Below, in pieces: positions 9,301-32,132 of a stretch of DNA of 32,453 nucleotides; the stretch's first letter is position 1, and each line of letters opens with the position of its first letter. Source of the stretch: a virus; the IMG/VR virus record IMGVR_UViG_3300001450_000057, positions 15,178 through 47,630 of that record. One strand, given 5' to 3'. The notes beneath the pieces were generated by a model. It did no database searches. It was not told the origin of the DNA and saw only the letters and a list, made by a program, of their open reading frames with translations. A program made the position numbers and the translations under genes.

Positions 9301-9952
9301 TGTTAGTGCTACACAATTTTTATATTCGGCTCCATATAGGCCAGCTTACGCTAGAACTTCTTTAGGTAAAGTTTTAACCAGGTTCCAAATGTTTGCTTGG
9401 AGCTCAGTTAAATTACGTGGAGACATGTTAAGAAGATTAGAAATAGCTGGGTTTAACCCTAATAGCCCTGAAGGTAAAGAAGCTCAACGATTTGTTGCAG
9501 GTGATATGTTTATGCTTGCTATGGCTAATATGTTTCCTTATTCTTTATTTGAAAACAATTTACCTCAACCTTATGGATGGTTTCAAGATACATCTGAATG
9601 GTTATTTGGTGATGAACAAGAAAGAGATAGAGCTTTCTTTGGAACTTATCCTACAGCAATTGCTCCTTTGCAAGTCATAACACCTCCTATTGGTCGTGTA
9701 GGATTATTACTGTCTGGAATTTTAAATGGAGATATGGAAAGAGTTACTAATTATTATGTATGGACTATGTTTCCGTTTGGAAGAATAGTTAGGGATTTAG
9801 CAGGCAAAGGTGGGATAGCTGAGGCTCCTATTAGATTGGTAGATAAGTTAACTGGTATACCTTTAACTCAAATACAACGAAAAAAGAAGCGTATGAGTGA
9901 AAATGAAGCTAATTTATTATATCCTAAAGCTTTTACTGGAGGATATGAATAG
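311..9952 (+). CDS. Giant (3213 aa) probable virion/ejection protein with RNA-polymerase-like DLDGD motif
   Basis: One uninterrupted frame of 3213 residues. The N-terminus (about 1-300) has hydrophobic Gly/Ala helices of the kind seen in giant phage ejection proteins. Residues about 415-620 resemble a SLOG-type nucleotide-binding fold (GNIGDAILAE, then a GG and KPLFVLD...W pattern). Residues about 670-850 are coiled-coil-like and charged. Residues about 1120-1660 look like a two-barrel RNA polymerase core: K1124 in LLGKYMMH and K1153 in QESAVKQRG, then RVP at 1493-1495, LLH ending at H1521, D1532-L-D-G-D1536, and a following GRNQLGPAVSNS from G1637. The Arg-x-Pro...LH...ADxDGD series matches the order in beta-prime subunits and in QDE-1/YonO/crAss-phage-type polymerases. 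The C-terminal 450 residues contain several hydrophobic helices. Packaging and ejection are inferred from size and position next to structural genes; the polymerase call rests on motifs alone. It ends in TAG followed by TGA. Confidence 0.8.
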   Translation: MEQQQFQPVWTKEQVKQYTNIYQGRGHLLSPEYKDKIEQHSAHYNVPFYEGEGGILSAIKAGAQGFTEALTLNIYQGDKPKTQTEAIAKNIGHLIGFAPAMVAGPLGKIAKAVNSRGLSRMAGYIGATGNKISPSMIAADWATKKASKIGNLALASVNKKNVDNLTSVSKLLLGGGARNISHQAFHLGVASAVGTLPEMLKGNFTPSMEAFMGGATAGSVFGVLGNLTGPTLQKMFKSSNPETLQTAETYLKGILGAGAQVQLAGAQDATTPELVYETILGAYFGANAGQWKNARAGKVYSKILKKGAEGTKAEKDQYKEWVNLTGKDIEQHPFTIKEPVEVQEALKKYQKDLGDPNQNLRGLHLEQLAKELNLDIESLNKKISEKTPEGFANEGEYVAGKKVIRVREKDLTDAPYVSTTGNIGDAILAEITGRYGLPTINYVPFRGKKERVVGLDRALTEDQVQQAFPAIVQANKTLKIKKTDSKGKDTQQPIDIANMNDGQRKQIAKNWWAVKNAKEVYLVTPLGGKAAKRSIYDRFLKWPAQFAKDANKPLFVLDSNTGRWSKWNTRVRNFEAIKRPPKPSVAISILGTNQLAKGSAKNIYGPMKSWLGAHFKQAPIANTVQKLANKQNKAKVKDIQSIFTAKGIAKKELDKLKDLEPTDDIQASQKALQANIENLDNRLKTLETETSAEFIQKAVKEIVRIKEEISDVDEFSSENDRRVGNKSLQITQEYLKDFWGKKAELNTLYEQREKKIELAESIDNILYKQFGEIGSKINRSEEAVKAIEDLVGNSFTMPESGKGEIRQALTRFNLGKPIIHYQSDSVSYNKMKSNANPISRAGNRKHQIEPEKYIETVFKEIAGGTESPLAVLDHVTRYSEKRGFNVDMEISRFRSKHPKEYAKFIKNISQKASKDGMYIFGGASDKDRLYFMKYHPELTNISAKDLFKTGITNAKELRLSREQSKSEEGLTTEQHDKAFISNVLYDLSMNGLETNIAGLQKFVKANSEFVKGSAPFNKRAQIWFTNSYKADSEFVKKAYESDGGVLNANDKYNVIIVKDLKKELEDYGLNSLENIENPEHVDGAIIVPDRLLNVINKDFGVPDSGQNKSFIVSPNAEHGALLGKYMMHSAGPKMSKLMEAQGLHMIMQESAVKQRGTREIGDYFVENGKLDIKAKTYEINPEDVRGSYSVYGNEHFFEPQRLPKQVMMNMLQQTHNNMDQAVIEKAFDDIIGKRWAGSKESNDRLAKYIKESNEGKEPEAKAEEIIKNIEETSMVDIVEAIRNESSPVLAEAIYQKMLKVTKETVANEYKNNEINNVEYEQYLTELSEFNSITDRMIKQGTMVSEKARSAGYNINADSIYNHKFIRDFKAKAVQNFLVNSATKPHMGNSGSAYMRPYDKAMQVNLDKSNELLNRAKIDPKTGKEVPNKKGANYNDEVFFLDNGHKKTPIWLKNPAGKEYSEPKTLEEVFNMFNKAKGKRLEYLTEVLTAATVRVPMDSVSGMQVMKFGGFTGRKGHGILLHSKAMRAEGGADLDGDKAFYYFGGTRGMSKDMMEQFYKNKDEFQYTDSKGNVKTKDNKKARISKKVGNYKKNTPIRDLLIASSTTGKARAQMALAETSISHYAPSERIRISAAAVDGRNQLGPAVSNSQLMKGAYNSIVANGGTDVLIYNTKIEASSGKEVFKRFKVTIEARTGDADVKLQRDMARAQLGLASDPMDELGLAGINVWKKLLWDTHFKAVKVVEVNSSGKSEYQSQVLEKLKTEKSLPSQYSKSGIFGHFINLNQGLWGRDYAQNRKYNMDEVQNFLESAISLSNIENASNSFLPKIGQLFSGLDWSDSPFTRINQSRVEKMYTRSNNLIKGRSYLQALMGRSSMKVPYTSQIASILKNKLFKTDSRVEIANSFEDFYSVIKDTIYQTKVDNNESLYKTNRDAYTERLKLLNEMVKEGEDFIVNDMSDIITLNLVENVVKKGNISPKRFQKIMNKVDSLKKNSYLKARDRKQLDKVIDELEGTDLSKFLEDYISVFDKKLKIKDRTSKDQLRTAEMDQAEIDAQIKEFRKKERLSSAENNLFDHLMLGSINRGNKAKKIKRFERKVNDWKNPIVLDYIKYLRSQNSKSNISRLGFSSLEVSDVAVREHLQSYMEMMKEASIPLTKSESANLTEQIDKAVNTLPNVPNTVQKMATNTGFEGIKFLGGKLKNKEIASMITETAELLRAHPSITKNKTGKDLNEFTRGLEFIRKDFDAMDIADIGKLNRYLKQVKEGTIWQRIQKLFGKGKGLSWRNYQQLPGTTNRELMANDIQLARKEGWFTDAKGEVQFGKVKVPTQFMDTLSNSIGRMTEMGTQVGDSLVAKFQEDQMFYQGLEEAPGLWEVAIRQREYSGQGKYRASRAKYNKDLAETENHIKYMQIQKEQAEKKLNWNKVKKTKYYVNLDGVRVRKTGQEIVDRINNNLTNFMEEMHGVIRGNKEFRGEESPYFVEWYDKEKLSPKYNHKLFLKDLDVYLNGRVPNRWKDVMKSTNESIPSIFGIDGVRAMMREMHIDFMMKIGENQKNAVKKKYYINRAIKLSKFPIKDTGKLPFENYFPRMFFEPTIVKQALKKQQEKLINNAEKLTSEEQISKLVKLQQRHKRLDGDYMFEEMNDTHLYDALLTEIAKKDGQVSDSQMNKWFSLDATMGNMRTREYSTEGWSVAPTSVEAYVRSLSNTYFKGLAGMVSRNIVSNPETGIYKKLTRGNKWTKTEAEAWTEFAKLYVNDALGNPVMISKEMRKDPKMALKRSPYALLADNRVAERIGKIAAKLKLKGIVDKDGALIGGVDTYDIQRWSQMEAKFEMAALLAHPKSIMANLMGGSLHTIQSAGLTAFKNVRNYEYLQQINPKLKSRKDVQDMVVNSGVLPQWMAYELGLQKEFQSSKGKEALEIISNYIKNNPDATKGDLVTFLGSTGRNISDSITNIAGKFMSGPERALRTDAFMSHYIKAWESFGGAIKDPNHPFLIEMAKKGVSATQFLYSAPYRPAYARTSLGKVLTRFQMFAWSSVKLRGDMLRRLEIAGFNPNSPEGKEAQRFVAGDMFMLAMANMFPYSLFENNLPQPYGWFQDTSEWLFGDEQERDRAFFGTYPTAIAPLQVITPPIGRVGLLLSGILNGDMERVTNYYVWTMFPFGRIVRDLAGKGGIAEAPIRLVDKLTGIPLTQIQRKKKRMSENEANLLYPKAFTGGYE

Positions 9953-13458: not shown

Positions 13459-13962
13459 TTAAAAAACATCTTTTCCTGCTAACTTTCTATTAATGTAACT
13501 TCTGACCCATTCTTTTTGAGTATTTAACCAAGCAACTACGCCTTCGTATTCGCCTGTTGTTAAAGGACCTTTTCTAGTGTTACATCTTTTACATATCATT
13601 TCTAAATTGACAGGAACTGAATCACCACCGTTGCTAAGAGGTACCATATGGTCACAGACCATATTCCTAACATCAAGTATATTGCGACAATACTTACATT
13701 TACTCCCGTAAGCTCGTAGCAATAATCTTCGAATCTCTGGTAAAGAGATTTTAAATATAACTTCATATTCTTTACTTCTCCTTTTTAAAGTAGAACGCAA
13801 TGTTGAGCTTTTTTTCATTATTCTATGAAATATTCTTTGTGCATGATTTCCATGCATTGATTTAAGTATTGGAATAAATTGCTCTTCCCAAAATAATGTT
13901 GATTTAGCCTTTCGGGGGGCTTTAATGCCCCCTTTAGGCTTATTGTTTTTAGGCGGACGCAT
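13459..13962 (-). CDS. HNH endonuclease
   Basis: 167 residues. The N-terminal half is very basic. The C-terminal half has a classic HNH core: C89-x2-C92, D104-H105 (MVCDHMVPLSNGG), N119-L120, and C124-x2-C127-N128 followed by RK. His105 would be the general base and the two CxxC pairs bind a structural zinc. It overlaps the HTH gene by 14 bases. Phage HNH proteins may be homing-type free-standing nucleases or nick DNA during replication or packaging; its place among small replication-region genes does not decide which. Confidence 0.85.
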   Translation of the reverse strand: MRPPKNNKPKGGIKAPRKAKSTLFWEEQFIPILKSMHGNHAQRIFHRIMKKSSTLRSTLKRRSKEYEVIFKISLPEIRRLLLRAYGSKCKYCRNILDVRNMVCDHMVPLSNGGDSVPVNLEMICKRCNTRKGPLTTGEYEGVVAWLNTQKEWVRSYINRKLAGKDVF

Positions 13963-14215: not shown

Positions 14216-14384
14216 TTTTCCTCCAACCTATTGTTGTTGAGATTTCGGCTTTCCATAAACTAAAGCATAGGCTTGATGTAGAATAGTCATTTTTGCTTAT
14301 TCCTATTATACCTATACTAAATAATTTAAAAAACGTTACTACCAAAGTTCCGTCTCCATAATAAATATCTAATACATAACCCAT
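14208..14384 (-). CDS. Possible small protein, 58 aa
   Basis: The ATG overlaps the stop of the primase-helicase (TAATG), and the frame runs to a TAA just inside the HTH gene. The first 30 residues are hydrophobic and beta-like (MGYVLDIYYGDGTLVVTFFK); the rest is low in features. An alternative is a 20-residue product in another frame starting MTILHQAYALVYGKP. The 5' overlap supports translation of at least the beginning. Confidence 0.4.
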   Translation of the reverse strand: MGYVLDIYYGDGTLVVTFFKLFSIGIIGISKNDYSTSSLCFSLWKAEISTTIGWRKNA

Positions 14385-16153
14385 TAGCTTTCCTCTACTT
14401 TCCCTAATCTAAAACTTGGTCTCCATTCAAGCTTAGCTTCAAAGAGTTCGCCATCTGTATTTTTAAATAGCTGAACATTCTTTATAGAACTTTTTGCTTG
14501 ACCATTTAGACCAATAACTTTTCTACTGGCATTTTCTATTGCACCTGACCCTTTACCAGCGTATAAATCAAGTACTTCATTTCTACTATATTCTCTTGCT
14601 ACTTGAGAAACTTGAATAATAATAACATCACTATTAACTGCCATGTTAGATAGCGTGTGAGAAATATATTTTATTTGCTCATACTCGCCTCTTTTGTTAG
14701 TTTCGACTAAGTCTATATAGTCTACTATAACAACAGCTGGTTGTAATGTTTTAATTTTATTCTGTATTTGCTCTAATGTAGGAGAAATAGTCTGTATAAC
14801 TAAGTGGCTTAGTTTATCTTTATGGGCTTCATATACTTCTTTATAGTTTTCAGTTACTTCATCTTTTGATAGCCCTGAGACAATTTGTAAGTGTCTTCTG
14901 TGCATATACCAAGCTGATAACTCTAATGATAAGAATAGTGTAGGGATTTGCCAATCAGTTACGATTCTATCCTCTACAAAGTCTACTCCTAATGCTATAT
15001 TCTGTGCGAATGTAGTCTTACTTGAACCAGTGGGCCCAAAGATAGTTACTAATTCGCCAGGGTAAATGATGCAATCCATATCTTTTGGCAAATGAAACAT
15101 CTTGCCAAGGTCAATAGACCTTCCACTAAAATTAGTTGTCATGCGCTCATGAAACTCTGTCTGTAAATCACTAGCACTTTTAACATCTATTGTATAGTCT
15201 TTATGTTTAAAATGCATACATTTTGTTTGACAATGTTTTAACATTAGCTCGTCTTGACAACCATATTGATAGCCACGATTATATGTTTGTTCTACTTTAT
15301 CTACAACAATAGATTCATCTAAAGATTTGTCATTCCAATGCAACATAGCTACCTTGGTAAACTCTGATGGGATACCATTACGTCTAAAGTGACTTGCTAT
15401 ACGCATTACTGTATTATTCCTGTTACCATTTTGTGGTCCAAGAGTTAACATGCGCTGTATACATGGAACTACTTTAGTATTTTCTGTTGTCTTAGAAAAC
15501 TCTTTTACTCTAGGGCTTTCTGTAACTATGTATTCTTCTAATTCACCTTCTCCAAGCAATTCCTGATAAGGAAAATCTAATCTTGGTTCTTTGGCAATTT
15601 CCATAATTTCATCAGGCGTTTTATGTTTAAGCTCACTAATAGTTAAGGGGACTTTATAAAGCCCTGTTTTTTTATTAACAGTATGAGCTACACGATAAAT
15701 TGCTGTTCTTATATATACCATTTCATCTATGCCTGGCAATAGCTTGGCCATAGTCTGTTTGACGGTAAAAGGAAGATTTTCTGATGGAGCAAAATTAAAG
15801 CTATCATTAGATAATATTAAATGATAACCAGTTCCGCTAAAATAAGGCTGTATTGCTGACTTAGACTGGACTCCTAAATCTTCTAAAGCGTAAACACAAG
15901 CAAGCGTTCTACGCAATGTTTCTTCATTAGAATTTTGTCCTTTGTCAATATCTACAATGACTTTGTCTATATGACGTTCGCCATAATAAGAGCTTACAGT
16001 TCCTGATTCTTCAATGGACCCTTTGGCCGCTTCATCATAAAGATAAACTGAACGATAAAGCGGTATTTTGGGCTGAATATACTTAGCTAAATCACCCTTA
16101 CTGATTAATACATTCCTACTTCTAGGATTATTTTGGGCGATTTCTACAAACAT
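14384..16153 (-). CDS. Primase-helicase (AEP-type primase fused to DnaB/RepA-type SF4 helicase)
   Basis: 589 residues. The N-terminal primase has the archaeo-eukaryotic hhDhD pair D68/D70 (VIVDIDKG), the sGxGxH motif at 106-111 (SGTGYH) and Arg154 followed by VNKKTGLYKVPL. A linker carries C231 (VPCIQRM), then C299, C308 and C312 (GC..8..C..3..CMHF), laid out like the cysteines of iron-sulfur primase large subunits. The C-terminal helicase has Walker A 373-380 (GPTGSSKT), a SLEL segment at 409-412, Walker B 474-479 (VVIVDY), and a QVSQVAREY...GSGAIENAS motif near 514-543. It would prime and unwind DNA at the phage fork. It is coupled by TAATG to the gene upstream. No DNA polymerase gene is in this window. 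Confidence 0.9.
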   Translation of the reverse strand: MFVEIAQNNPRSRNVLISKGDLAKYIQPKIPLYRSVYLYDEAAKGSIEESGTVSSYYGERHIDKVIVDIDKGQNSNEETLRRTLACVYALEDLGVQSKSAIQPYFSGTGYHLILSNDSFNFAPSENLPFTVKQTMAKLLPGIDEMVYIRTAIYRVAHTVNKKTGLYKVPLTISELKHKTPDEIMEIAKEPRLDFPYQELLGEGELEEYIVTESPRVKEFSKTTENTKVVPCIQRMLTLGPQNGNRNNTVMRIASHFRRNGIPSEFTKVAMLHWNDKSLDESIVVDKVEQTYNRGYQYGCQDELMLKHCQTKCMHFKHKDYTIDVKSASDLQTEFHERMTTNFSGRSIDLGKMFHLPKDMDCIIYPGELVTIFGPTGSSKTTFAQNIALGVDFVEDRIVTDWQIPTLFLSLELSAWYMHRRHLQIVSGLSKDEVTENYKEVYEAHKDKLSHLVIQTISPTLEQIQNKIKTLQPAVVIVDYIDLVETNKRGEYEQIKYISHTLSNMAVNSDVIIIQVSQVAREYSRNEVLDLYAGKGSGAIENASRKVIGLNGQAKSSIKNVQLFKNTDGELFEAKLEWRPSFRLGKVEES

Positions 16154-16755
16154 TATAAAGCGTCAGCAGATACTACTGATTTTTCAGATGCTGGGCCTTC
16201 ATTAACTTCTTTAAGATAATTGTTGCTCTTCATCCATTTAGCATAACTATCCATTTCTACTTTACCTTTTTCGCTATTAGGATAAAGTTTAGCAAGCATA
16301 GTGTTAAATACTGAACCAGTCTTTTTATTTTGAGTCTTATATAAATAAGCTACAAAATCTAATACAGGTGTAGTACCTGGCATAAAGCTACTAGTATGAT
16401 GAGTATTAAGATAGGCAGCTATATCAGGTATTGCTGAACCATCATTAGTTTCCCATTCGCCTTTAATGTTAACGCCTGCAGTGCATCCTAAAGCGTCAAA
16501 TATTCTGTATATTTTATCAAGTACAGAACCACCAGTAATATTACCTGAAGCATCTTTTTCTAAGCTACCAGCTAATTGCATATTTCTAGTATATTTAGAG
16601 TCTTTAATTGCAAACTCGACATCAATATATATATCAGCCCAATCAAAATTACTTGATTTGTCTTCAAAGTTAACTATGCCTACTTCACAAACTCCTGAAT
16701 ATTTACTTTCTCCAGTAGCATTTTCTTGTTTTGGTGTGGGTCTAAATAACGCCAT
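16153..16755 (-). CDS. Probable DNA-replication/recombination accessory protein, 200 aa (ssDNA-binding-like?)
   Basis: No motif names this protein directly. It lies between a Sak4-like ATPase and the primase-helicase and overlaps both by TAATG, a slot that in many phages holds a single-strand DNA-binding or DUF669-like protein. The first half is beta-rich (SKYSGVCEVGIVNFED, DWADIYIDVEFAIKD), as an OB-like fold would be; the second half is helical. Unlike typical SSBs it lacks an acidic PF tip, which is found instead on the nearby JAB protein. Confidence 0.6.
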   Translation of the reverse strand: MALFRPTPKQENATGESKYSGVCEVGIVNFEDKSSNFDWADIYIDVEFAIKDSKYTRNMQLAGSLEKDASGNITGGSVLDKIYRIFDALGCTAGVNIKGEWETNDGSAIPDIAAYLNTHHTSSFMPGTTPVLDFVAYLYKTQNKKTGSVFNTMLAKLYPNSEKGKVEMDSYAKWMKSNNYLKEVNEGPASEKSVVSADAL

Positions 16756-17417
16756 TATTTACCTTCCTTTTTATATATTTTAGTCCAATCAAATGGCATT
16801 ACTTTACCTCGCAAATGGTCACAACGACTACCTGCTTCTAAAGCTTTACCTGATTCAAATGATACCATTAACTTGTCTTCTTCTCTAAACATATAGCCTA
16901 TTGCATCTGCATTAGCCATTACCATGTTCTTTAACTTACCTGATAAATCTAAGCTTTCTGGTTCTATTGCGGTTGAATTATCAATAGGAGATGCAGTTTT
17001 GCGATGACCAATAATTATTAAATGGTCACACAATGAACGCAACTTCTTGATATTATTCATTACTCGCTCGCGAACTAGCCCAAAGCCTTTACCAAAAGGT
17101 AAGTCATTTATGCTTTCAATGTCATGTTCTCTACAAACATCTTTTTCTGTCCAATTAACTATTTTATCAATAGTGTCAAGAGCAAAGTATTTGTATTCAT
17201 GACCATCTGCTGCATCAGCATAAAATTGCAACAATTCTTCTTTAGAATCTATAGAGTGAAAGTAACCTTCAAGCATATTACCACCTTGCTCAGTGTCAAC
17301 GATTAAACAATCATCAAGCTGACTAAGCATTGTAGTTTTACCAACTTTAGGTGCACCATACAACAATAAGATTCCTGGATTAATGGAAACAGGTTTCCGT
17401 TTTTGTTTTTTAAGCAT
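16755..17417 (-). CDS. Sak4-like RecA-fold ATPase (phage single-strand annealing/recombination)
   Basis: Walker A GAPKVGKTT lies in a GILLLYG strand near the N-terminus, an acidic Walker B-like strand in YKYFALDTIDK, and a sensor-like LIIIGHRKT follows. The layout and size (220 aa) match AAA_24/Sak4 phage ATPases that promote strand annealing with an SSB partner. A GTG nine codons upstream (17444) is also open, but the ATG at 17417 sits behind a strong AAAGGAGAAT site and is preferred. Its stop overlaps the next gene by TAATG. Confidence 0.85.
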   Translation of the reverse strand: MLKKQKRKPVSINPGILLLYGAPKVGKTTMLSQLDDCLIVDTEQGGNMLEGYFHSIDSKEELLQFYADAADGHEYKYFALDTIDKIVNWTEKDVCREHDIESINDLPFGKGFGLVRERVMNNIKKLRSLCDHLIIIGHRKTASPIDNSTAIEPESLDLSGKLKNMVMANADAIGYMFREEDKLMVSFESGKALEAGSRCDHLRGKVMPFDWTKIYKKEGK

Positions 17418-17463
17418 ATTCTCCTTTTGAATTAAATGGGCCACAACCGTAGTTATGACCCAT
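17410..17463 (-). CDS. Possible 17-aa leader micro-ORF
   Basis: Between the E1-like gene and the Sak4 gene, an ATG opens MGHNYGCGPFNSKGEYA and stops at a TAA that overlaps the Sak4 ATG in another frame. There is no strong ribosome site. It could couple translation to Sak4 or be chance; the Gly/aromatic composition is the only hint of coding. Confidence 0.25.
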   Translation of the reverse strand: MGHNYGCGPFNSKGEYA

Positions 17464-17495
17464 ATTTTGTTCTATATCACAAAAGTAATATATTG

Positions 17496-18155
17496 CTATT
17501 GAGCACTCGAAACAAGCATATTATTGGGAAAAGTAAAGATAATTTCTGCCTTACAAGGCTCATTATTTAATACTTTTTTAACTGCATTTGCAATAAAGGC
17601 ACCGCTCATATTTGAGCAGTAGCTTGTAGCTTTTGCATTGCAAGGTTCATCAGAAGCACTTTCGTCTGAATACCAAGTATTGATGTAATCCTGTAGCTTA
17701 GGATTCTTTAATACGTATTGACGATATTGCTCTGAGCCCATTCGACCATCAATCAATAAAAACGGTTTGTTTTTTTTGTTTAATGCTTCTTTAGCTGCTT
17801 CTAGTCTAGCTTCCATACTATCAAAACCAAGTATAACTACGTCATTGCTATTTAATGTTTTACCAAAATCTAGAAATAACCCATGGTTAGATTGAATAGA
17901 TACTTCATCATTAATGCTTTTTAAGTGACTACTTAAAGCATCAACTTTTTTCTTTCCAACATCTTTTAAGATATAATGACTTACTCCGATATTTTGTATT
18001 TCTACTTTATCCATATCATACAAGACGAATTTTTCTACACCCATACGACATAGTTGTGTAGCTGCGGAACTACCTATAGCTCCGCAACCTAACACATGAA
18101 ATACTTTATCTTGAAAGTCTTCTATCAATCCTGAACTACGTTCATTTATTCTCAT
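17496..18155 (-). CDS. E1-like (ThiF/UBA-type) ubiquitin-like-protein activating enzyme
   Basis: 219 residues, the minimal E1/ThiF adenylyltransferase core. It has a nucleotide-binding GCGAIGS at 23-29, Asp47 in LYDMDKVEIQN with N55, Lys residues at 68-70, Asp112 in VILGFDSMEAR, and a C-terminal EPCNAKATSYCS with Cys172 the best candidate for the thioester cysteine and Cys180 an alternative. It should adenylate the C-terminal glycine of a Ubl and pass it to a cysteine. It overlaps the JAB gene by TAATG, and the GAGGAGGT ribosome site for this gene lies in the JAB tail codons. Its short length fits PRTRC-type ThiF proteins better than eukaryotic E1. MoeB/ThiF roles are less likely because JAB, E2-like and Ubl genes are adjacent. 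Confidence 0.88.
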   Translation of the reverse strand: MRINERSSGLIEDFQDKVFHVLGCGAIGSSAATQLCRMGVEKFVLYDMDKVEIQNIGVSHYILKDVGKKKVDALSSHLKSINDEVSIQSNHGLFLDFGKTLNSNDVVILGFDSMEARLEAAKEALNKKNKPFLLIDGRMGSEQYRQYVLKNPKLQDYINTWYSDESASDEPCNAKATSYCSNMSGAFIANAVKKVLNNEPCKAEIIFTFPNNMLVSSAQ

Positions 18156-19126
18156 TAGAAAGGTACCTCCTCTTCCTGATTTACATTTTCAAAGAAATCA
18201 TCATCCCAATAAACCTGAAGAGCACTTGATAACGCTTCTTCATCTTTAAACTTAGAGATTTTAAAGTCATGTTTTTTAAATGCAATATTAGGTTTTTTGA
18301 TTTTCTCATTCCATTTTCTAAAAGCAACTTTAGCATTTTTGCATCTTCCTACTTCTTCAACAAGAGAAATAACAAAAAGCTCTGCTTCTTCTATAACTTT
18401 TTCTGGAACTGAGCTTAAATCTGTATATTTTTGAGTATGACTATTATAATAAGAAGAATGTTTAGTGTTATACGGAGCTTTATTATATCCTCCATACTCA
18501 TAACCATAACCATTATAATCTGCTGCTGCCCATGTGTTTTCTGCTGGAGTTAACGCTAGATGTCCTTGTTTGTAGCCTGTTCCGTAATTAACTATTGCAG
18601 ATGTACATTTTTCTTTAACTTCTTTCATTACAGCTTGGTTTACGCTAGTTTCAACTTCTAAAAAGTTTAATTCAACGTTTTCTTCATGCAAAAATGGTTT
18701 AAAGAATTGTACTCTTAATTTATACTCTTTCTTTAAGTTAATCACTAATGATAAAGACCAATCTTCAGCAGGCATTCCTAGTATAGTAGCATTGTCTGTA
18801 CCTGACCAGAACGCTCCCATTGTGTGATGACTATGCCACCAACAAAATCGTACATTTCTACCATACTTAGCAGCTGATTTAGAATAATATCTTGCTAATT
18901 CTTCAGCGTCTAATGTACACTCGCCACCAGATACATCTTGTTTCATAATTTCAGGAAACTTTAGTATAAAATCTCCTTCATCATCAGTTTCTACTATTAA
19001 TTGACCTGCGATTTCTGCTTTAAATTCTTGATATGAAGCAGAAGCATAATCTATTATCTTTTGGAAATCATCAGGATGTATCCAAAACTTTTTATCTTTA
19101 TTCTCTTGCGTGTTTATTTGGTGCAC
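18155..19126 (-). CDS. JAMM/JAB (Mov34/MPN-like) metallopeptidase, putative deubiquitinase-like
   Basis: 323 residues from a GTG start preceded by AAAGGTAA. The JAMM signature is complete: Glu38 (FKAEIAGQ), then H98-S-H100-x7-S108-x2-D111 (HSHHTMGAFWSGTD), which would bind catalytic zinc. Residues 1-160 form the peptidase domain. Residues about 190-245 are a Tyr/Gly/Asn-rich low-complexity linker (YNGYGYEYGGYNKAPYN), and a helical C-terminal region ends in an acidic tip NQEEEVPF. The peptidase could mature the neighbouring Ubl by cutting after Gly-Gly and could remove it from targets. The last codons also encode the ribosome site of the E1 gene, so the acidic tip may be partly a by-product of that signal. 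Confidence 0.9.
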   Translation of the reverse strand: MHQINTQENKDKKFWIHPDDFQKIIDYASASYQEFKAEIAGQLIVETDDEGDFILKFPEIMKQDVSGGECTLDAEELARYYSKSAAKYGRNVRFCWWHSHHTMGAFWSGTDNATILGMPAEDWSLSLVINLKKEYKLRVQFFKPFLHEENVELNFLEVETSVNQAVMKEVKEKCTSAIVNYGTGYKQGHLALTPAENTWAAADYNGYGYEYGGYNKAPYNTKHSSYYNSHTQKYTDLSSVPEKVIEEAELFVISLVEEVGRCKNAKVAFRKWNEKIKKPNIAFKKHDFKISKFKDEEALSSALQVYWDDDFFENVNQEEEVPF

Positions 19127-19147
19127 AATATTACCTTTCTTTTATTA

Positions 19148-20890
19148 TTAATCGTTAAAGGGATTATCTGGATAACTAATAGCATGAATATAAGTCCATA
19201 TATCTTTATTAGGATTATCATTGCTAACATTATTCATTCTTTGTCTAGTTATATCAGTACTTCTTATTCTTTTAAGCGTTTGGTTACAATCTATGCCTGT
19301 TTTAATAGCTATACTATTATAATATGCGTTTTCTGCATATTTAAAATAATCTACAAACATATATACATTAAAAGATTTAGAATACATTTCGTCTAATGAA
19401 TATAGCCCATCATATTCTTTCAATGTACTTACATCTAATTCGTATAAATTAAATAATTTCTGTAATTTTACACGATAAGTAAGATGTGAAGGGTCATCAT
19501 AACTTAATGGCTCTTTAAAGTCCTGTATAATACTTTTATACTTTAGTGTTAACATATCAATAATCTTTAGAGGAATTGATTTTCCGTTAATTATTATGAA
19601 ATCTCGTTCTAAAGGATAAAGATATTTTCCTGTAGTTGGATATTGCTCAACTATATATCTTGCTAGCTCTTTTATTTCTTTATATTCATCTGCAAGTAAT
19701 GGAATATTTTCTTGAGTCCATTTTTTATTTACAGAACATTCTTGGATATAGTCACAATTAGAACAAAACCTTTCTATAAAATCTTGTTTTGCTTCAGTGC
19801 TAGAGCCAACTGCTGTTTTACATGTTGTATTATTAACAAATAAAGTATGTGTTTCTTTAAACTTTCTATTTAAAGGGCGACCAAACAGCCAGTCGTCATA
19901 CTTTACTAATGGATTAACACTATTTACAGGATAAAAAGAAGCCCATCTATTTAAAAACATTTTTGCTGTATTTAATTTACCGCTAGCTATGTTTACTAAT
20001 ATTTGGTCTTTTAAATCTCCGAAACAAGTGTTGCCTGTATCATACCCATTCCATGAAGCACTTTTAGAGACAAATGGATGCAGTCTTTTTTTAACATACT
20101 TAGGAAATAAAAATGTATAGCCACTCATTTTATCATTTATAGAAAACCTTCTATTGGCTGATTTTGTATTTATTAATCTTAAAAATGAAACAGCATCGTA
20201 TACACTTATAGTTTGGCATATTAACATATCGCCATAATCTACTTTGCATATTGTTTTATTTCTACTTGTTGATATGTCAATCTCTACATTTTTTAAAGGA
20301 ATGCCAATATTTAGAAACCAGTCTTTAGGGTTTGTAGTTTCTTTTATTTTGTATTCAGATAAATTTCTAGTAAAGTTTTTAATTGTCCCATTAATATCTT
20401 CTATTACAGGTCTAGCAGCAATTTTATTATAAGCTTGTTTAAACCATGGAACTTGACTAATATTTACTTGTAAATCAGGATTCTTAATTATTGATTCATT
20501 AAAATTATCTATAAGTTGGTCTAATAATTTTTTACCAGACCCATCATCTTCATACAATTTTAAATTATCGACTCTAAATTGCTTTAAGTCAGAGTTTAAT
20601 TTCATTAATTCACTTTGAGCATCTCTTAATGAATATGTTTGTGCGTTAAATATATTTTGAATATTCTTTTTATTAATTAAGTTTGGAAATGCTAAATCGA
20701 CAGCTAATTGTTTAAACTTTTTAAATGCACCTTGTTCCCATCTAGCTGAATTTAATGCTTTTAAATCTGCATTATATCTGTAATTAAATCTTTCTAGTCT
20801 TTCTTCAAATCCAGAGGTATTGCTTAATGAGTTACTATCAATTTCTGGAAATTCTATTACTTTGTTTTTAAGTATTAATGTTTCTTGCAT
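19148..20890 (-). CDS. E2-like conjugating-enzyme candidate with WhiB-type cysteine cluster, 580 aa
   Basis: It sits between the Ubl and the JAB/E1 pair and has a good GGAAGGA ribosome site. Residues 1-190 are helical and charged. The segment at about 190-330 has strands followed by YTFLFPKYVKKRLHPFV, in which H271-P272 precede GNTCFGDL with Cys289, and then helices. This resembles the E2 active-site signature (HPN...G.ICLD). The spacing from His to Cys is 18 rather than about 10, so an insertion would be needed. Residues 357-385 carry C357-x18-C376-x2-C379-x5-C385, with GSSTEAK before the second Cys, very close to the iron-sulfur motif of WhiB proteins. The remainder (390-580) is helical with no recognised motif. 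If real, this is an E2 domain fused to a metal or Fe-S site. Alternatively, it is an unrelated phage protein with a chance HP...C. Confidence 0.65.
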   Translation of the reverse strand: MQETLILKNKVIEFPEIDSNSLSNTSGFEERLERFNYRYNADLKALNSARWEQGAFKKFKQLAVDLAFPNLINKKNIQNIFNAQTYSLRDAQSELMKLNSDLKQFRVDNLKLYEDDGSGKKLLDQLIDNFNESIIKNPDLQVNISQVPWFKQAYNKIAARPVIEDINGTIKNFTRNLSEYKIKETTNPKDWFLNIGIPLKNVEIDISTSRNKTICKVDYGDMLICQTISVYDAVSFLRLINTKSANRRFSINDKMSGYTFLFPKYVKKRLHPFVSKSASWNGYDTGNTCFGDLKDQILVNIASGKLNTAKMFLNRWASFYPVNSVNPLVKYDDWLFGRPLNRKFKETHTLFVNNTTCKTAVGSSTEAKQDFIERFCSNCDYIQECSVNKKWTQENIPLLADEYKEIKELARYIVEQYPTTGKYLYPLERDFIIINGKSIPLKIIDMLTLKYKSIIQDFKEPLSYDDPSHLTYRVKLQKLFNLYELDVSTLKEYDGLYSLDEMYSKSFNVYMFVDYFKYAENAYYNSIAIKTGIDCNQTLKRIRSTDITRQRMNNVSNDNPNKDIWTYIHAISYPDNPFND

Positions 20891-21181
20891 ACTATCCTTC
20901 CAAGTTTGTTTAAAAGGGGCGGACCTTGAGTGACTCGTGGAGTATCTTCAGAAAAAGCCCCTTATAAACGTTTAAAGTTTAAGGCCCTGTAAAAACACAG
21001 AGCCTAAAGAAAATATATTAAAACGGATTAACAGTGAGTGCTTCAGAATATTTTATTAGTAATCAGCGTGAGACTTTACCTGTAAGCCCGAAGCTCCGAA
21101 GGTTTAGTCGACCTGTTATTGAATGAATATTTGTGAGTGACTTTATTAAAAGATTTCTTAATATATTTTTATTGCATATTA
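20891..21181 (-). other. 291-nt structured intergenic region between Ubl and E2-like genes
   Basis: No convincing gene. It contains a perfect AAGGGGC/GCCCCTT pair (20914-20920 with 20957-20963) enclosing a small ACTC-GTG-GAGT hairpin, and an 8-bp hairpin (20983-20990 with 20997-21004) whose one non-Watson-Crick pair is a G-U only in minus-strand RNA. Short modules recur: GAGTGACT twice, GAGT..CTTCAGAA twice, and CCGAAG tandemly. It forms the 5' leader of the E2-like gene and may set the ratio of Ubl to enzymes. Confidence 0.5.
20983..21004 (-). terminator. Hairpin downstream of Ubl gene (possible weak terminator/processing site)
   Basis: Minus-strand RNA reads GGCUCUGU-GUUUUU-ACAGGGCC, an 8-bp stem with one G-U pair and a 6-nt loop. 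There is no U-run directly after it, so attenuation, pausing or RNase processing is as likely as termination. Confidence 0.35.
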
Positions 21182-21400
21182 CTAGTTACCGCCTTTAACT
21201 CCTTGAGATACATGAGATATATCCATGTTTTCTTCAATAGCGGTTGAATCAGCTACAATTACGTCGTTAATTGCAATAGAACCTGTTAATCCAAGTTCAC
21301 TGCGAAGTTCTCCAACTGTACTTGCTTCTACTTCTGTTTGAACAAAATTAACTGTTCCGTTCATAAGTCCTATTGTTATGCTAGTATTAACTGCTGCCAT
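21182..21400 (-). CDS. Ubiquitin-like protein (Ubl) modifier ending Gly-Gly-Asn, 72 aa
   Basis: Small beta-grasp-like pattern: strand SITIGLMNG, strand VNFVQTEVEAS, helix TVGELRSELGL, strand SIAINDVIVAD, a turn, and ISHVSQGVKGGN. The order beta-beta-alpha-beta-beta and the C-terminal K69-G70-G71-N72 are those of prokaryotic ubiquitin-like modifiers, including PRTRC protein C-type Ubls. One residue after Gly-Gly would have to be removed, which suits the JAB peptidase encoded downstream. It has a strong AAGGAGAA ribosome site and a candidate promoter of its own, so it may be made in excess of the enzymes. The tail is verified on the DNA: AAA GGC GGT AAC TAG. Alternative: a ThiS/MoaD-like sulfur carrier, less likely because no sulfur-pathway genes are near. 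Confidence 0.85.
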   Translation of the reverse strand: MAAVNTSITIGLMNGTVNFVQTEVEASTVGELRSELGLTGSIAINDVIVADSTAIEENMDISHVSQGVKGGN

Positions 21401-21430
21401 ACGTGTATTCTCCTTCTATGTGTTAAATAT

Positions 21431-21492
21431 AATCTAATACGGTTTAGTTCATAGTACCGCAAAATACTCCTGACTGACAAGGTCATTAGATT
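21431..21492. repeat. Inverted repeat flanking the Ubl promoter
   Basis: Perfect 8-bp arms AATCTAAT (21431-21438) and ATTAGATT (21485-21492). Inside are CGGT/ACCG (21440-21443 with 21456-21459) and TGAC/GTCA pairs. The arms bracket a candidate minus-strand promoter, so this is either an operator pair or a branched leader/terminator structure. Confidence 0.5.
21451..21480 (-). promoter_or_regulatory. Candidate promoter for the Ubl gene
   Basis: Minus strand TTGTCA (21475-21480), 18-bp spacer, TACTAT (21451-21456), about 50 bases before the Ubl ATG. It matches sigma-70 consensus at 5/6 and 4/6 positions. Confidence 0.4.
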
Positions 21493-21513
21493 GGATTAGT
21501 TGTCTAATTAAAC

Positions 21514-22209
21514 TTATTCCCAATTCATTGTTGGAATTGGCTTTCTTTCATTAATACATTCTACAAGAGTTTCAATAGGTATAAACTGATTGATAGCTTG
21601 TTTTACATGATTTGCTGTATCAACATTTAGTATAAAATATGCAGCTTTAATAGCTCCCTTAGCTGAAGTATCTTCTACATAATTAAGATAAGCACTCATT
21701 CCATCACACATGGTTATAGCTGATACATTTTGGGCTACACAACGGGCAATAGTTAATTTTGTTCTACGTATTCCTAATTTATTCTCTAATTGACGTATAG
21801 AACGCATAACTCTTTCAGAAATATTCTTAGCTCCCTTGAGCCATCTTTCACATTCCTGAACAGCTGTTATCTTCATAGTATCTTCATGTAAAGCAGTAAA
21901 TATCTTATCATAATCCAATGTACTATCTATTAAACATCCTTTAACGGTCTTGCGACCTAATGCTTTTAAAGCATTATATCTTCTATGCCCATTAACAACC
22001 ATGAGATTATTACCATTTTTAATTACGGTAATAGGTTCAATATGTCCAATAGCATGAAGATTCTTTTTTAAGGTTTTTAAGCTACCTTCAGTTGTACGTT
22101 GCTTAGGGTTTAAAGGGCTTAAGGTTAAATCTTTAAGTTTAAAATCCTTTAATGTCATCTGATGAACAGGCATTGTTGTGCTAGTTCCATCTTTAATAGT
22201 TAAAGCCAT
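21514..22209 (-). CDS. ParB/Sulfiredoxin-fold (ParB-like nuclease domain) protein, 231 aa
   Basis: The N-terminal domain has the ParB pattern: LSPLNPKQR, then LKKNLHAIGHIEPITVI, LMVVNGHRRYNALKALG with G74-H75-R76-R77 (the GxRR nucleotide-contacting motif), followed by a helical domain. ParB-fold proteins bind DNA and CTP, or act as nucleases or regulators; the length (231 aa) is short for a chromosomal ParB. A good TAGGAGAAA ribosome site precedes it. Its position directly before the Ubl gene and the other conjugation genes recalls PRTRC cassettes, where a ParB-related gene is a defining member. No ParA partner is visible, so plain partitioning is unlikely. Confidence 0.85.
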   Translation of the reverse strand: MALTIKDGTSTTMPVHQMTLKDFKLKDLTLSPLNPKQRTTEGSLKTLKKNLHAIGHIEPITVIKNGNNLMVVNGHRRYNALKALGRKTVKGCLIDSTLDYDKIFTALHEDTMKITAVQECERWLKGAKNISERVMRSIRQLENKLGIRRTKLTIARCVAQNVSAITMCDGMSAYLNYVEDTSAKGAIKAAYFILNVDTANHVKQAINQFIPIETLVECINERKPIPTMNWE

Positions 22210-22242
22210 AGCTTTATTTCTCCTAATTTATTAGTTGATTAA

Positions 22243-22316
22243 AAAGAGAGACCCGCTAAATGTGTTTATAATAGCACCCTGAGTAAACTCAGCGAGGTGT
22301 GCATATCTCTCTCTTT
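22243..22316. repeat. Inverted-repeat element B upstream of parB-like gene
   Basis: A perfect 9-bp outer stem AAAGAGAGA (22243-22251) with TCTCTCTTT (22308-22316) encloses CACC/GGTG (22275-22278 with 22296-22299) and a CTGAG-TAAA-CTCAG hairpin (22279-22292). It fills the gap between the 41-aa gene and the ParB-like gene. The outer arms match those of element A near 23.1 kb. Confidence 0.6.
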
Positions 22317-22318
22317 AA

Positions 22319-22444
22319 TTATGATTGATACCAAATAGCATAGAGTTGCTTCTTGGTAAGTTTATTAGCTTGCGCTTTCGTTAATCCACGATGATGTGTT
22401 ATCCAATTAACGAGTTGATGTTTGAAGTGATATGGACAGGTCAT
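22319..22444 (-). CDS. Hypothetical small protein, 41 aa
   Basis: Starts MTCPYHFKHQLVNWITHHRG and continues LTKAQANKLTKKQLYAIWYQ. Basic, helical and His-rich; the second half looks like a small helix-turn-helix or an SAP-like motif (LTKAQANKLTKKQL). It overlaps the preceding gene by ATGA, which supports translation. Function unknown. Confidence 0.6.
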   Translation of the reverse strand: MTCPYHFKHQLVNWITHHRGLTKAQANKLTKKQLYAIWYQS

Positions 22445-22614
22445 CTTTCTTTAGACCATAGTAGTACATATACTGTGAGGAATTGAAATATTGTAAAGCA
22501 TAGCATTGGAAGCGCATAATTGCCTTGAAACCAATGTATTATTGTAAAGATTAACCATAAAAATGGCATTATTTCTATACCCATTTCTATAAAAAGCTTA
22601 AATAAATTTCTCAT
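22441..22614 (-). CDS. Small membrane protein, 57 aa
   Basis: Two probable membrane helices (about 11-28, EIMPFLWLIFTIIHW, and about 35-52, LPMLCFTIFQFLTVYVLL) with basic residues at both ends. It is coupled to both neighbours by ATGA overlaps. It could be a membrane anchor, or a holin-like or exclusion protein; no family is recognised. Confidence 0.6.
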   Translation of the reverse strand: MRNLFKLFIEMGIEIMPFLWLIFTIIHWFQGNYALPMLCFTIFQFLTVYVLLWSKER

Positions 22615-22781
22615 GTTGCTCCTTTTACTTTTTTATATTGCTTGCACATATGTCGGTTACCACCTTTATTGTACAATAACCACCCGTATTCAGTAAATGC
22701 CCAATGTACTTTATCTGATTTGCAAAACCTACATTTTGCTTTTGACTTACTTTCTTTAAATTTTTTACTTTGAGTATACAT
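22611..22781 (-). CDS. Small Cys/His zinc-binding-like protein, 56 aa
   Basis: Starts MYTQSKKFKESKSKAKCRFC after a GGAG site. C17-x2-C20 and a later H44-M-C46 (NRHMC) could bind zinc; the rest is strongly basic with aromatic residues. The stop is coupled to the next ATG. Probably nucleic-acid binding; unproven. Confidence 0.6.
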   Translation of the reverse strand: MYTQSKKFKESKSKAKCRFCKSDKVHWAFTEYGWLLYNKGGNRHMCKQYKKVKGAT

Positions 22782-22800
22782 TATAACTCCTTTGCATTTA

Positions 22801-22875
22801 TTAGATTTCTTGAGATATTAATATTGCTACGACTATAACATATACTATAATATATAAATAGAATACTTGTTTCAT
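22801..22875 (-). CDS. 24-aa membrane micropeptide
   Basis: An AAAGGAGGAC site precedes an ATG at 22875. The product begins MKQVFYLYIIVYVIVVAILI and ends SQEI, a single membrane helix with almost no soluble part. A longer in-frame start at 23004 exists, but that extension crosses the hairpin at 22897-22959 and lacks a ribosome site, so the short form is preferred. Confidence 0.55.
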   Translation of the reverse strand: MKQVFYLYIIVYVIVVAILISQEI

Positions 22876-22896
22876 TTGTCCTCCTTTTAAAATTTT

Positions 22897-22959
22897 GAGA
22901 GTGTCAAAAAAAGTCATAAGTAACTTCGGTCTGCCTCGCGGTAAAGACTCTCCACTCTC
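22897..22959. repeat. Inverted-repeat element D in leader of 24-aa gene
   Basis: Perfect 7-bp arms GAGAGTG (22897-22903) and CACTCTC (22953-22959), with an inner GTCT...AGAC hairpin capped by GCC-TCGC-GGT. An adjacent second copy of ACTCTC could pair instead, giving two alternative folds. It sits between a candidate promoter and the ribosome site. Confidence 0.5.
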
Positions 22960-22992
22960 GTACACATAAAAACACAAATAAGCTTTGTGCAG

Positions 22993-23020
22993 GCTATATA
23001 ACACCTTTAACAGTAGTCAA
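22993..23020 (-). promoter_or_regulatory. Candidate minus-strand promoter
   Basis: TTGACT (23015-23020), 16-bp spacer, TATAGC (22993-22998). It would drive the small-gene cluster and probably the ParB/Ubl region. Confidence 0.45.
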
Positions 23021-23087
23021 GAGAACTACTAGATTGTAGCATCGCTTGTTGTATAGGAGGTATGGTGTAAACCTCTGGTAAATCTAA

Positions 23088-23151
23088 ATTAAAGAGAGCC
23101 TGTTACTTTAAACTGTATCATTCAACAGTCGTGTAACTATTCTCTCTTAAT
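23088..23151. repeat. Inverted-repeat element A
   Basis: Outer arms ATTAAAGAGAG (23088-23098) and CTCTCTTAAT (23142-23151), one bulge, then GTTAC/GTAAC (23102-23106 with 23133-23137) and ACTGT/ACAGT (23112-23116 with 23125-23129). These nest into a single long hairpin that begins at the predicted start of transcripts from the promoter at 23156-23184. A 9-bp direct repeat ATCTAAATT flanks it. Confidence 0.6.
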
Positions 23152-23155
23152 GTGT

Positions 23156-23184
23156 ATCTAAATTTGTGCACCTTTGGATGTCAA
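23156..23184 (-). promoter_or_regulatory. Candidate minus-strand promoter with overlapping operator-like repeat
   Basis: TTGACA (23179-23184), 17-bp spacer, TTAGAT (23156-23161). The -35 match is perfect and the spacing ideal; the -10 is weak. An inverted repeat GCACCT...AGGTGC (23168-23193) covers the spacer and -35 and could be a regulator site. Confidence 0.5.
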
Positions 23185-23214
23185 GGTAGGTGCGAACCCC
23201 ATTGTTTTCGGTAG

Positions 23215-23388
23215 TCATTCCATAATAACACCACCGCTATTTACAGGGCCATTAAAATGAATACGCGCTTGGTTGCGTGCATCTGTAATATTAAAAGCCT
23301 TAAACATATGAGTACTACATGTGCGTTCACATATCATACGAAAGTTTATTAACGGCTTATTTATTCTTTCTATTGCTTTCTGTTTCAT
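23215..23388 (-). CDS. Hypothetical small protein, 57 aa
   Basis: The ATG at 23388 follows a GGAGTAA site; a longer in-frame start at 23442 overlaps a candidate promoter and is less likely. The product contains FRMICERTCSTHMFKAFNIT, then DARNQARIHFNGPV. The alternating basic and aromatic pattern and the DARNQAR..F segment look like a conserved small phage protein, but I cannot assign a function. Confidence 0.6.
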   Translation of the reverse strand: MKQKAIERINKPLINFRMICERTCSTHMFKAFNITDARNQARIHFNGPVNSGGVIME

Positions 23389-23417
23389 GGTTGTTACTCC
23401 TTTATGTGTAGTAAAAT

Positions 23418-23447
23418 AGTATAATACGCGCCTCATCCTCACGTTAA
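23418..23447 (-). promoter_or_regulatory. Candidate promoter for the 57-aa gene
   Basis: TTAACG (23442-23447), 18-bp spacer, TATACT (23418-23423), located just after a terminator and 30 bases before the gene's ATG. Confidence 0.4.
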
Positions 23448-23463
23448 ATTACCAATGATAAAA

Positions 23464-23496
23464 AATACAAGAGCACCCAAAGGGTACTCCTGTATT
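23464..23496 (-). terminator. Rho-independent terminator of the 89-aa gene
   Basis: Minus-strand RNA forms a 15-bp stem with a UUU loop (ACCC/GGGU at the tip, AAUACA/UGUAUU at the base), followed by a run of U. Two pairs are G-U on the minus strand but would be A-C mismatches on the plus strand, which fixes its direction. It lies 14 bases after the stop codon. Confidence 0.8.
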
Positions 23497-23509
23497 ATGA
23501 CCGAGGATT

Positions 23510-23779
23510 CTATGAGAAATCGAACTCAGCAAACGCTTCATCTGATGATTCGACTTTCTCTTGGAAGACGATAGTCATAGCTGGGCCCATAGATTGAGTC
23601 TGAGGGTTGAATTGGGCTTGATTGCTCGTGCAAGACCAACCAGCCGGAAGAAGAGAATCGATGGAGCCAGTGTCGGGGACGAAAGTAAAACAAACTATTG
23701 ATTTCTTACTCTTTGATAGTTTAGTTTTACCGAGTCCAACCAATTCATTCCAAATTGATGTGAAAATATGTTTTTCCAT
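23510..23779 (-). CDS. Hypothetical protein, 89 aa, first gene of the minus-strand early region
   Basis: Unknown function. A Lys/Ser-rich segment (KTKLSKSKKS) is followed by a beta-rich part with two Cys and ends in an acidic SSDEAFAEFDFS tail. It is flanked by a strong terminator and by the divergent control region, so it is transcribed alone. That layout often marks an abundant early protein such as a host-takeover factor. Its codons look less AT-rich than those of neighbouring genes. Confidence 0.65.
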   Translation of the reverse strand: MEKHIFTSIWNELVGLGKTKLSKSKKSIVCFTFVPDTGSIDSLLPAGWSCTSNQAQFNPQTQSMGPAMTIVFQEKVESSDEAFAEFDFS

Positions 23780-23825
23780 TTTTATATCCTTTTTGATTTA
23801 ATTGTTAAACGTGTCAACGTTAGTA

Positions 23826-23866
23826 GGGGAGAGCCGAGGACGCAGTCCGTAGGCGATTAACACCCC
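23826..23866. repeat. Nested hairpin 1 in control region
   Basis: GGGG-aga-GCC-ga-GGAC-gca-GTCC-gta-GGC-...-CCCC: three stems nested around a 3-nt loop (GGAC at 23838-23841, GTCC at 23845-23848). Preceded by a small AACGT/ACGTT hairpin (23808-23821). Confidence 0.5.
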
Positions 23867-23908
23867 AGTAAGTTGATGTGGTATACGGTAGTGTTGGTGG
23901 GAGCGAAG

Positions 23909-23961
23909 CAGTTGCTGATTGAGTCTTTCGGACGCAACGCGTCCGCAATCAGTTTCAACTG
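23909..23961. repeat. Long interrupted hairpin 2 in control region
   Basis: Stem of 20 pairs in three blocks: CAGTTG/CAACTG, CTGATTG/CAATCAG and CGGACGC/GCGTCCG, closed by an AAC loop (23936-23938). The inner two blocks are contiguous on the right side and split by 7 nt on the left. Confidence 0.65.
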
Positions 23962-24023
23962 AATCGACCCCCCATACACCCGTATTTCAACGGGGTGGGG
24001 TGGTGTGTATATCACGTAACCAC

Positions 24024-24050
24024 ATTCTACAGCAATTTTTTAAGAATCAA
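24024..24050 (-). promoter_or_regulatory. Candidate early promoter (minus strand)
   Basis: TTGATT (24045-24050) and TAGAAT (24024-24029), spaced 15 bp, which is shorter than optimal. It would read through the hairpin region into the 89-aa gene. Confidence 0.3.
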
Positions 24051-24131
24051 CCTAATCTTCTTATCTTTACCTTATTTTGGGTTATATTCGCCATACAAAC
24101 TGAATATTTTTTTTAAAATGAAAAATAAGAC

Positions 24132-24160
24132 TTGACTTTGATGTTCTTATTTGCTTAAAT
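24132..24160 (+). promoter_or_regulatory. Candidate promoter for the plus-strand late genes
   Basis: TTGACT (24132-24137), 17-bp spacer, TTAAAT (24155-24160). It is the best match to sigma-70 in the region and lies about 110 bases before the lysozyme-like gene. Confidence 0.55.
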
Positions 24161-24226
24161 TTAACCCACTGGTGTGGCACATAGAAGCTGCCTAGTGTTA
24201 TTTTTCAAAACAAAGCCTTTCATGTT

Positions 24227-24249
24227 ATCAGCTGATGTTAGCAGCTGCT
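24227..24249. promoter_or_regulatory. Twin palindromes, possible operator
   Basis: Two perfect 10-bp palindromes, ATCAGCTGAT (24227-24236) and AGCAGCTGCT (24240-24249), share the core CAGCTG with centres 13 bp apart. They lie between the candidate late promoter and the first late gene. Confidence 0.4.
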
Positions 24250-24274
24250 ATATGGCTATATATAGGATAAATTA

Positions 24275-24748
24275 ATGGAATTATATCAGTATGTTCTAAA
24301 GCATATAGGTGAGCGATACAAGCGTTCTGAAAGCTTTTTAGAAGGTGTTATGGATAGGATATCATGGCATGAATCAAGAAGTATAGTAGATTGTAAACAA
24401 ATAGGTGGAGGCCCAGGTAGAGGCCTCTTTCAATTTGAAGTAGGAATTAGTCAGGGTGGTGAGACTGCTATGAATAGACTGCTTAGGTGGTTTAATAAGC
24501 ATGAGGTAGACGTACCTTCTTGGGCTAATATTGGAATAAATGGGGTAGATGCTTCTAACTTGTCTAAAGAAGCTCAGTGTATGATGTTTTTAGCTAATGT
24601 ACGCTATCACCCTAAAGCTAGTTTTAAAGGCTTAACTATAGAAAATCTATCAGAATGGTGGGCAGACTACCATTGGGCAGGTGCAGACGTAGACCGTAAG
24701 CACCATCTACACTCATTTGAACACAGCATGGAACATTTTAATGCATAA
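24275..24748 (+). CDS. Lysozyme-like/lytic transglycosylase-like endolysin, 157 aa
   Basis: The segment MDRISWHESRS with Glu33 as likely catalytic acid, followed by GGGPGRGLFQFE (residues 44-55), is the hallmark of goose-type lysozyme/soluble lytic transglycosylase folds (E-S...GLFQ). A later WWADYHWAG matches the region closing the substrate groove. No signal peptide is seen, so export would need a holin; a small membrane protein follows directly. It starts the late plus-strand genes. It may instead act in the virion at entry, but its gene position favours lysis. Confidence 0.75.
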   Translation: MELYQYVLKHIGERYKRSESFLEGVMDRISWHESRSIVDCKQIGGGPGRGLFQFEVGISQGGETAMNRLLRWFNKHEVDVPSWANIGINGVDASNLSKEAQCMMFLANVRYHPKASFKGLTIENLSEWWADYHWAGADVDRKHHLHSFEHSMEHFNA

Positions 24749-32118: not shown

Positions 32119-32132
32119 AGGAGGTTAGATAG

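Follow-up and report, generated by a model that had tools for sequence, protein, structure and literature searches.

Organization of the locus

We wanted to investigate whether four neighbouring genes of a phage could encode a complete ubiquitin-like conjugation pathway, as an earlier reading of the sequence alone had proposed. The window, that is the whole stretch of DNA that we analyzed, comprises 32,453 nucleotides (G000:C1:15178-47630) of an IMG/VR virus record that is 47.6 kb long. The four genes are located on the minus strand and encode, in the order of transcription, a ubiquitin-like protein (Ubl; 21182-21400), a putative E2-like protein, here called X (19148-20890), a JAB/JAMM peptidase with a GTG start codon (18155-19126) and a minimal, ThiF-like E1 (17496-18155). 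Base 18155 belongs both to the stop codon of JAB and to the start codon of E1 (TAATG, one-base overlap), so the translational coupling of these two genes suggested before is plausible.

The cassette is preceded by a gene for a ParB-N domain protein (21514-22209, minus strand), which adjoins Ubl and is found in only a few relatives. It is followed on the same strand by genes for a Sak4-like ATPase (16755-17444), a protein of 200 aa at an SSB-like position (16153-16755) and a primase-DnaB helicase (14384-16153), all three outside the cassette. The Sak4 and primase-helicase genes bear out the earlier description of a cassette placed among replication genes, and because these genes adjoin it the region may be called early. 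The plus strand carries terminase, P22-like portal and capsid genes; the portal was called from a weak tblastn match, while terminase and capsid were named by reading the open reading frames and their neighbours. For all four cassette genes dN was lower than dS, with dS near saturation. Compared with the related locus L007, X was the fastest changing of the four proteins (36% identity), while E1 retained 77%.

Several other features of the record were observed. The intergenic RNA between Ubl and X (20891-21181, minus strand) is strongly folded (z -3.36); it contains hairpins, and a stem of 13 nt lies ahead of a U-rich run. A Rfam scan of positions 16000-24300 gave no match, for this RNA or elsewhere; it could be an attenuator that holds Ubl in excess over the enzymes. 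The first and the last 1.5 kb of the record (L180:3-1491 and window 30963-32452) are 86% identical over a capsid gene, and the record looks as though two strains had contributed to the assembly of a circularly permuted genome, which may be nearly complete. A single open reading frame of 3213 aa (311-9952, plus strand) takes up about a fifth of the record and presumably encodes a giant virion protein. A 167-aa open reading frame (13459-13962, minus strand) resembles an HNH endonuclease by eye only.

Ubl, E1 and JAB

The Ubl was expected to end in Gly-Gly-Asn, and the 72-aa product indeed ends in V-K-G-G-N (K69-G70-G71-N72), with the codons of G70-G71 at 21193-21188 and that of Asn72 at 21187-21185 (minus strand). 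The GG pair was present in 83/83 distinct relatives. Four of them have 77-126 residues after it and all the others 0-31; in 23 of the 83 nothing follows GG. The AF2 model has the strand order of a beta-grasp fold and is of moderate confidence (pLDDT 73.6). A Foldseek search with this model gave Caldiarchaeum ubiquitin as the top match, together with other ubiquitins, MTH1743 and TtuB (probability ~0.98, E ~0.007), and VIA-align superposed the model on ThiS with Z 8.4. Pfam ThiS was matched by 22/39 Ubl relatives, the best at 3.7e-5. On its predicted fold and its C-terminal GG we assign the window Ubl to the beta-grasp ubiquitin-like modifiers.

The predicted E1 matched Pfam ThiF at 4.8e-21 (75.5 bits, cut-off 28.1). 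A profile of 26 E1 sequences keeps R6, the GCGAIGS motif (residues 23-29), D47/D49, N55, K70, D112 and C172/C180. This score, the motif, the catalytic Asp D112 and a C-terminal Cys place the protein, as judged from its sequence, in the E1/ThiF superfamily. The closest solved relatives of the profile were UBA6 and UBA5, then MccB, MoeB/ThiF, Cap2 and BubCD; the best NCBIfam model, ThiS adenylyltransferase, scored below its cut-off. The enzyme consists of one 219-aa domain and lacks a separate Cys or UFD domain, as do sulfur-transfer enzymes. Both GCGAIGS and a C-terminal cysteine had been pointed out previously. There are in fact two such cysteines, and C172 (17642-17640) is the likelier catalytic residue, because it matches C332 of the crAss enzymes (45/45). 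We dropped C180 as a candidate, since it is not conserved in crAss E1s.

The claim that the JAMM peptidase has all its metal and catalytic residues held: E38, H98-S-H100, S108 and D111 (S108-x2-D111) of the 323-aa protein are invariant among its relatives. JAB matched Pfam Prok-JAB at 7e-5, with a score of 23.1 just under the cut-off of 25. The best match of its profile was the Caldiarchaeum Rpn11 homologue (2.3e-5), followed by eukaryotic RPN11, which was not significant. With the E, the H-x-H-x10-D and the conserved Ser, the protein is classed from its sequence as a JAMM/MPN+ peptidase. JAB was also kept in 26/26 loci where the Ubl already terminates in GG. As no trimming is needed there, this argues for deconjugation and not only for maturation.

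Evidence that X is E2-like

The profile searches recommended in the sequence-only reading connected E1 with ThiF, relatives of the Ubl with ThiS and, below the cut-off, JAB with Prok-JAB, and left the 580-aa X without a convincing match in Pfam, NCBIfam, PHROGs and PADLOC. No E2 match was obtained in the Pfam, NCBIfam and PADLOC scans, or when HMMER profiles of X, of the HPH family described below and of crAss gp78 were run against PDB sequences, and plain Foldseek of the X model against PDB found nothing. In these searches the E2-like candidate X was not linked directly by sequence to any known E2.

Across 89 relatives, C289 (20026-20024, minus strand) is the sole invariant residue of X, with P272, W316 and P327 nearly invariant. 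It lies within CxG, after an HP(Y/F)(I/V) motif whose HP is at residues 271-272. The AF2 model is confident from approximately residue 190 to 330, within an E2-like region of approximately residues 112-345. When the Foldseek candidates were re-ranked with VIA-align, E2/UEV domains filled the top seven rows (two Tsg101 UEV entries, UBE2R1, UBE2L6, UbcH10, UbcH7 and Cdc34), with low Z of 4.1-5.2. The Ubl model thus has the fold anticipated from the sequence, and the ranking for X points to the anticipated E2 fold, though weakly by itself.

Since the structural Z was low, we looked for a bridging family. In several long contigs that share the terminase of the window, this position ahead of Sak4-SSB-primase/helicase is taken by a divergent cassette. 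The protein between Ubl and JAB in these contigs has HPH(I/L)...C(L/F)G, the canonical motif of E2 enzymes, with H-P-H...C-x-G invariant in 8 sequences. Profile alignment of X with this HPH...CLG family gave E=1.6e-6 and placed C289 on the motif Cys; the best of 40 column-shuffled controls reached 0.29 and unrelated families gave at least 0.22. Our confidence that X is E2-like is moderate to high, because the fold ranking, the homology with the HPH...CLG family and synteny agree in this prediction.

Beyond the E2-like region X has conserved cysteines C357, C379 and C385, which suggest a metal site; the Cys cluster may bind metal. We considered X as an iron-sulfur (WhiB-like) protein on the basis of Cys spacing and rejected this, as it leaves C289 and the HP motif unexplained.

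The cassette in related phages

Scans of IMG/VR found 94 relatives by JAB and 221 by distant E1. Among 80 non-redundant loci that extend 4.5 kb or more upstream of JAB, we set aside four crAss/Fpv records, whose Ubl and E2 are beyond the reach of the marine profiles. All four genes were present in the order Ubl-X-JAB-E1 in 70 of the remaining 76 viral loci, and E1 was present in 12/14 long contigs with a related terminase. The genes are inherited as a block, which is what the survey of related phages proposed earlier was to establish. E1 and JAB profiles run against 84,980 bacterial and archaeal genomes detected no relative, in a search based on short conserved peptides that remote homologues would escape.

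The window E1 matched proteins of crAss-like and Flavobacterium Fpv phages with ~28-31% identity (CRASSVIRALES). In crAss001 the order is gp79-gp78-gp77 (JAB)-gp76 (E1), and Flavobacterium phage Fpv4 has the same order. By profiles, the order gp79-like, gp78-like, JAB, E1 occurred in 46/50 Crassvirales/Fpv loci, including a few duplicates; the other 4 were truncated. The N-terminal ~90 residues of gp79 end in K-x-I-x-SG (S in 40/41, G in 41/41) and are followed by a further domain; the Fpv4 counterpart of this end is KSGG. The motif of gp78 is YMHSH...CxG, whose Cys is kept in 41/41. The E1 of crAss001 (gp76, L002:7542-8000) has an N-terminal extension of ~150 residues. Alignment of the marine with the crAss families by hhalign gave 8.8e-77 for E1 and 9.2e-42 for JAB. 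The values were modest for Ubl (1.3e-4) and E2 (8e-4, C289 on C198), and these two links are strengthened by synteny. Full-length X gave no signal against four crAss-like proteins, and the link appeared only with deeper, trimmed profiles.

A related E1 was also found in the jumbo phages PhiXhv-15 and Ep032. In PhiXhv-15 (L307:2757-6636) we read by eye a Ubl-like protein of 141 aa whose last residues are GG, then a Cys-rich, E2-like protein of 892 aa with HPHM...CLG, followed by E1; no JAB was seen at this cassette.

The four-gene cassette, as recognized from sequence, is carried by a marine-type phage and hundreds of relatives, as well as by human-gut crAss phages. Our searches of the open-access literature found no description of a Ubl-E1-E2-JAB cassette in phages, although one may exist elsewhere, and term searches in three crAss papers gave no description of it.

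Comparison with known systems

The bacterial Bil and PRTRC systems had been offered as the nearest comparison, which is apt; by the features that we compared, the cassette falls in neither. BilABCD has the same four roles in the same order (Ubl, E2, JAB/JAMM, E1). Bil is characterized by a tandem-domain BilA, a BilD with an inactive and an active adenylation domain, a BilB with CEHH, and a JAB that trims the Ubl tail (PMC11354881). In contrast, the phage Ubl has one domain of 72 aa where BilA has two, the phage E1 has one adenylation domain where BilD has two, X shows no CEHH after C289 by inspection, and the cassette is phage-borne and located beside replication genes. As the features of BilA, BilD and BilB are absent from its sequences, we do not class it as Bil.

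In operon type 6d, described by Iyer et al. 2006 (PMC1779556), Ubl, E1, E2 and JAB are encoded separately and lie on mobile elements. PRTRC and type 6d share these separate genes with the cassette, and a ParB-related gene adjoins the window Ubl, but the predicted phage E2 keeps HP before the Cys, unlike 6d. NCBIfam PRTRC models scored far below their cut-offs (PRTRC_ThiF 26 bits against 144.75, PRTRC_A 13.9 against 101.8), with no further PRTRC match. ParB clustered upstream in only 3 loci, where very divergent ParBs might have escaped detection, and a general PRTRC-like association with ParB was ruled out, as ParB is not conserved in relatives. On these profile scores and the lack of a conserved ParB, the cassette is not assigned to PRTRC.

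The phage E1 resembles the E1 part of the E1-E2 fusions of CBASS type II (best PADLOC match 7.1e-17, partial). However, the phage genes are separate and include a dedicated Ubl, and a scan of the neighbouring genes revealed no CD-NTase, so that from sequence the cassette does not appear to be a Cap2/Cap3 system. The Caldiarchaeum and eukaryotic systems have the nearest match of the JAB profile (the Rpn11 homologue), the top Foldseek match of the Ubl (Caldiarchaeum ubiquitin) and the nearest relatives of E1 (UBA6/UBA5), but they are very divergent from the cassette, whose E1 is minimal and in which no RING E3 was found. The I/K pair of lambdoid phage tail assembly likewise consists of Ubl and JAB proteins encoded by a phage, and the phage examples of Iyer et al. 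are such tail Ubl-JAB pairs (PMC1779556). The I/K pair has neither E1 nor E2 and belongs to tail genes, not to replication genes.

Proposed function and alternatives

We consider it highly probable that the cassette encodes a complete, reversible and phage-specific system of Ubl-protein conjugation, because the gene order, the GG and the catalytic residues are conserved, and in view of the evidence on X and the retention of JAB. JAB would remove the residues that follow the GG of the Ubl (a single Asn in the window), and the minimal E1 would use ATP to adenylate the GG end and form a thioester at C172. The Ubl would then be handed to C289 of X, which probably selects the target via its extra domains; no separate E3 was seen among these genes. 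In this way the Ubl would be joined to lysines of target proteins, from which JAB could afterwards take it off. The genes, their conserved catalytic residues, the beta-grasp model of the Ubl, the homology of X and the co-inheritance are what we observed; the catalytic steps and the target are inferred.

The main biochemical rival is a sulfur-carrier pathway, as in CysO/Mec+ and QbsE, which are Ubl thiocarboxylate systems with JAB trimming. E1 would then make a thiocarboxylate of the trimmed Ubl, and X would use the sulfur to modify DNA, RNA or a metabolite. ThiS is indeed the best family of the Ubl, and E1 is of ThiF size, with ThiS adenylyltransferase as its sub-threshold NCBIfam match. On the other hand, the E1 and JAB profiles fit members of ubiquitin systems better than MoeB/ThiF. 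We regard sulfur transfer as quite improbable, because X appears to be E2-like and no rhodanese or sulfurtransferase was seen beside the cassette. Still more improbable is the attachment of Ubl to a lipid or small molecule instead of a protein, in the manner of Atg8 or MccB. Atg3 occurs among the VIA matches of X (rank 47, Z 2.1) and MccB among the relatives of E1, but these matches are very weak and nothing else points in this direction.

If the Ubl is conjugated to proteins, the same chemistry could serve different targets. We tentatively prefer replication or recombination proteins of phage or host, with some reserve, on the argument, from synteny only, that several phage lineages have the cassette within their replication block. 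A rather unlikely use, though one to be taken seriously, is counter-defence or host takeover, in which the Ubl would inactivate defence or housekeeping proteins of the host. The resemblance of E1 to the E1-E2 proteins Cap2 of CBASS would fit this, as would the fastest change being in X, the presumed target selector. The constant place in the replication modules of diverse lineages and the presence in most long contigs fit a core function more readily than an accessory role. Bacterial Bil conjugates Ubl to phage structural proteins, which are thus reachable targets, and a phage could modify its own virion proteins for assembly or protection. We consider such a role improbable, since the cassette lies among replication genes, and the virion genes are on the other strand.

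Returning to replication as the preferred target, a broader and somewhat more doubtful extension is that this is a near-core viral Ubl system that reversibly tags replication-fork proteins. It would be a viral counterpart of PCNA ubiquitination and SUMOylation with its own E2 and Ubl families, present both in podovirus-like phages that are uncultured and in Crassvirales, but found in none of the cellular genomes sampled.

In summary, most of what is known of Ubl conjugation in bacteria comes from anti-phage defence, whereas these results suggest that phages themselves carry the whole pathway. crAss phages are among the commonest gut viruses, and in crAss001 the genes concerned sit under the misleading labels 'hypothetical', 'metalloprotease' and 'thiamine biosynthesis'. 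Because crAss001 can be propagated on a cultured Bacteroides, the Ser-Gly remnant predicted on lysines can be looked for directly. If the proposed function is true, it would add a class of viral post-translational modification, together with new and highly divergent E2 and Ubl families that bear on the origin of ubiquitin systems.
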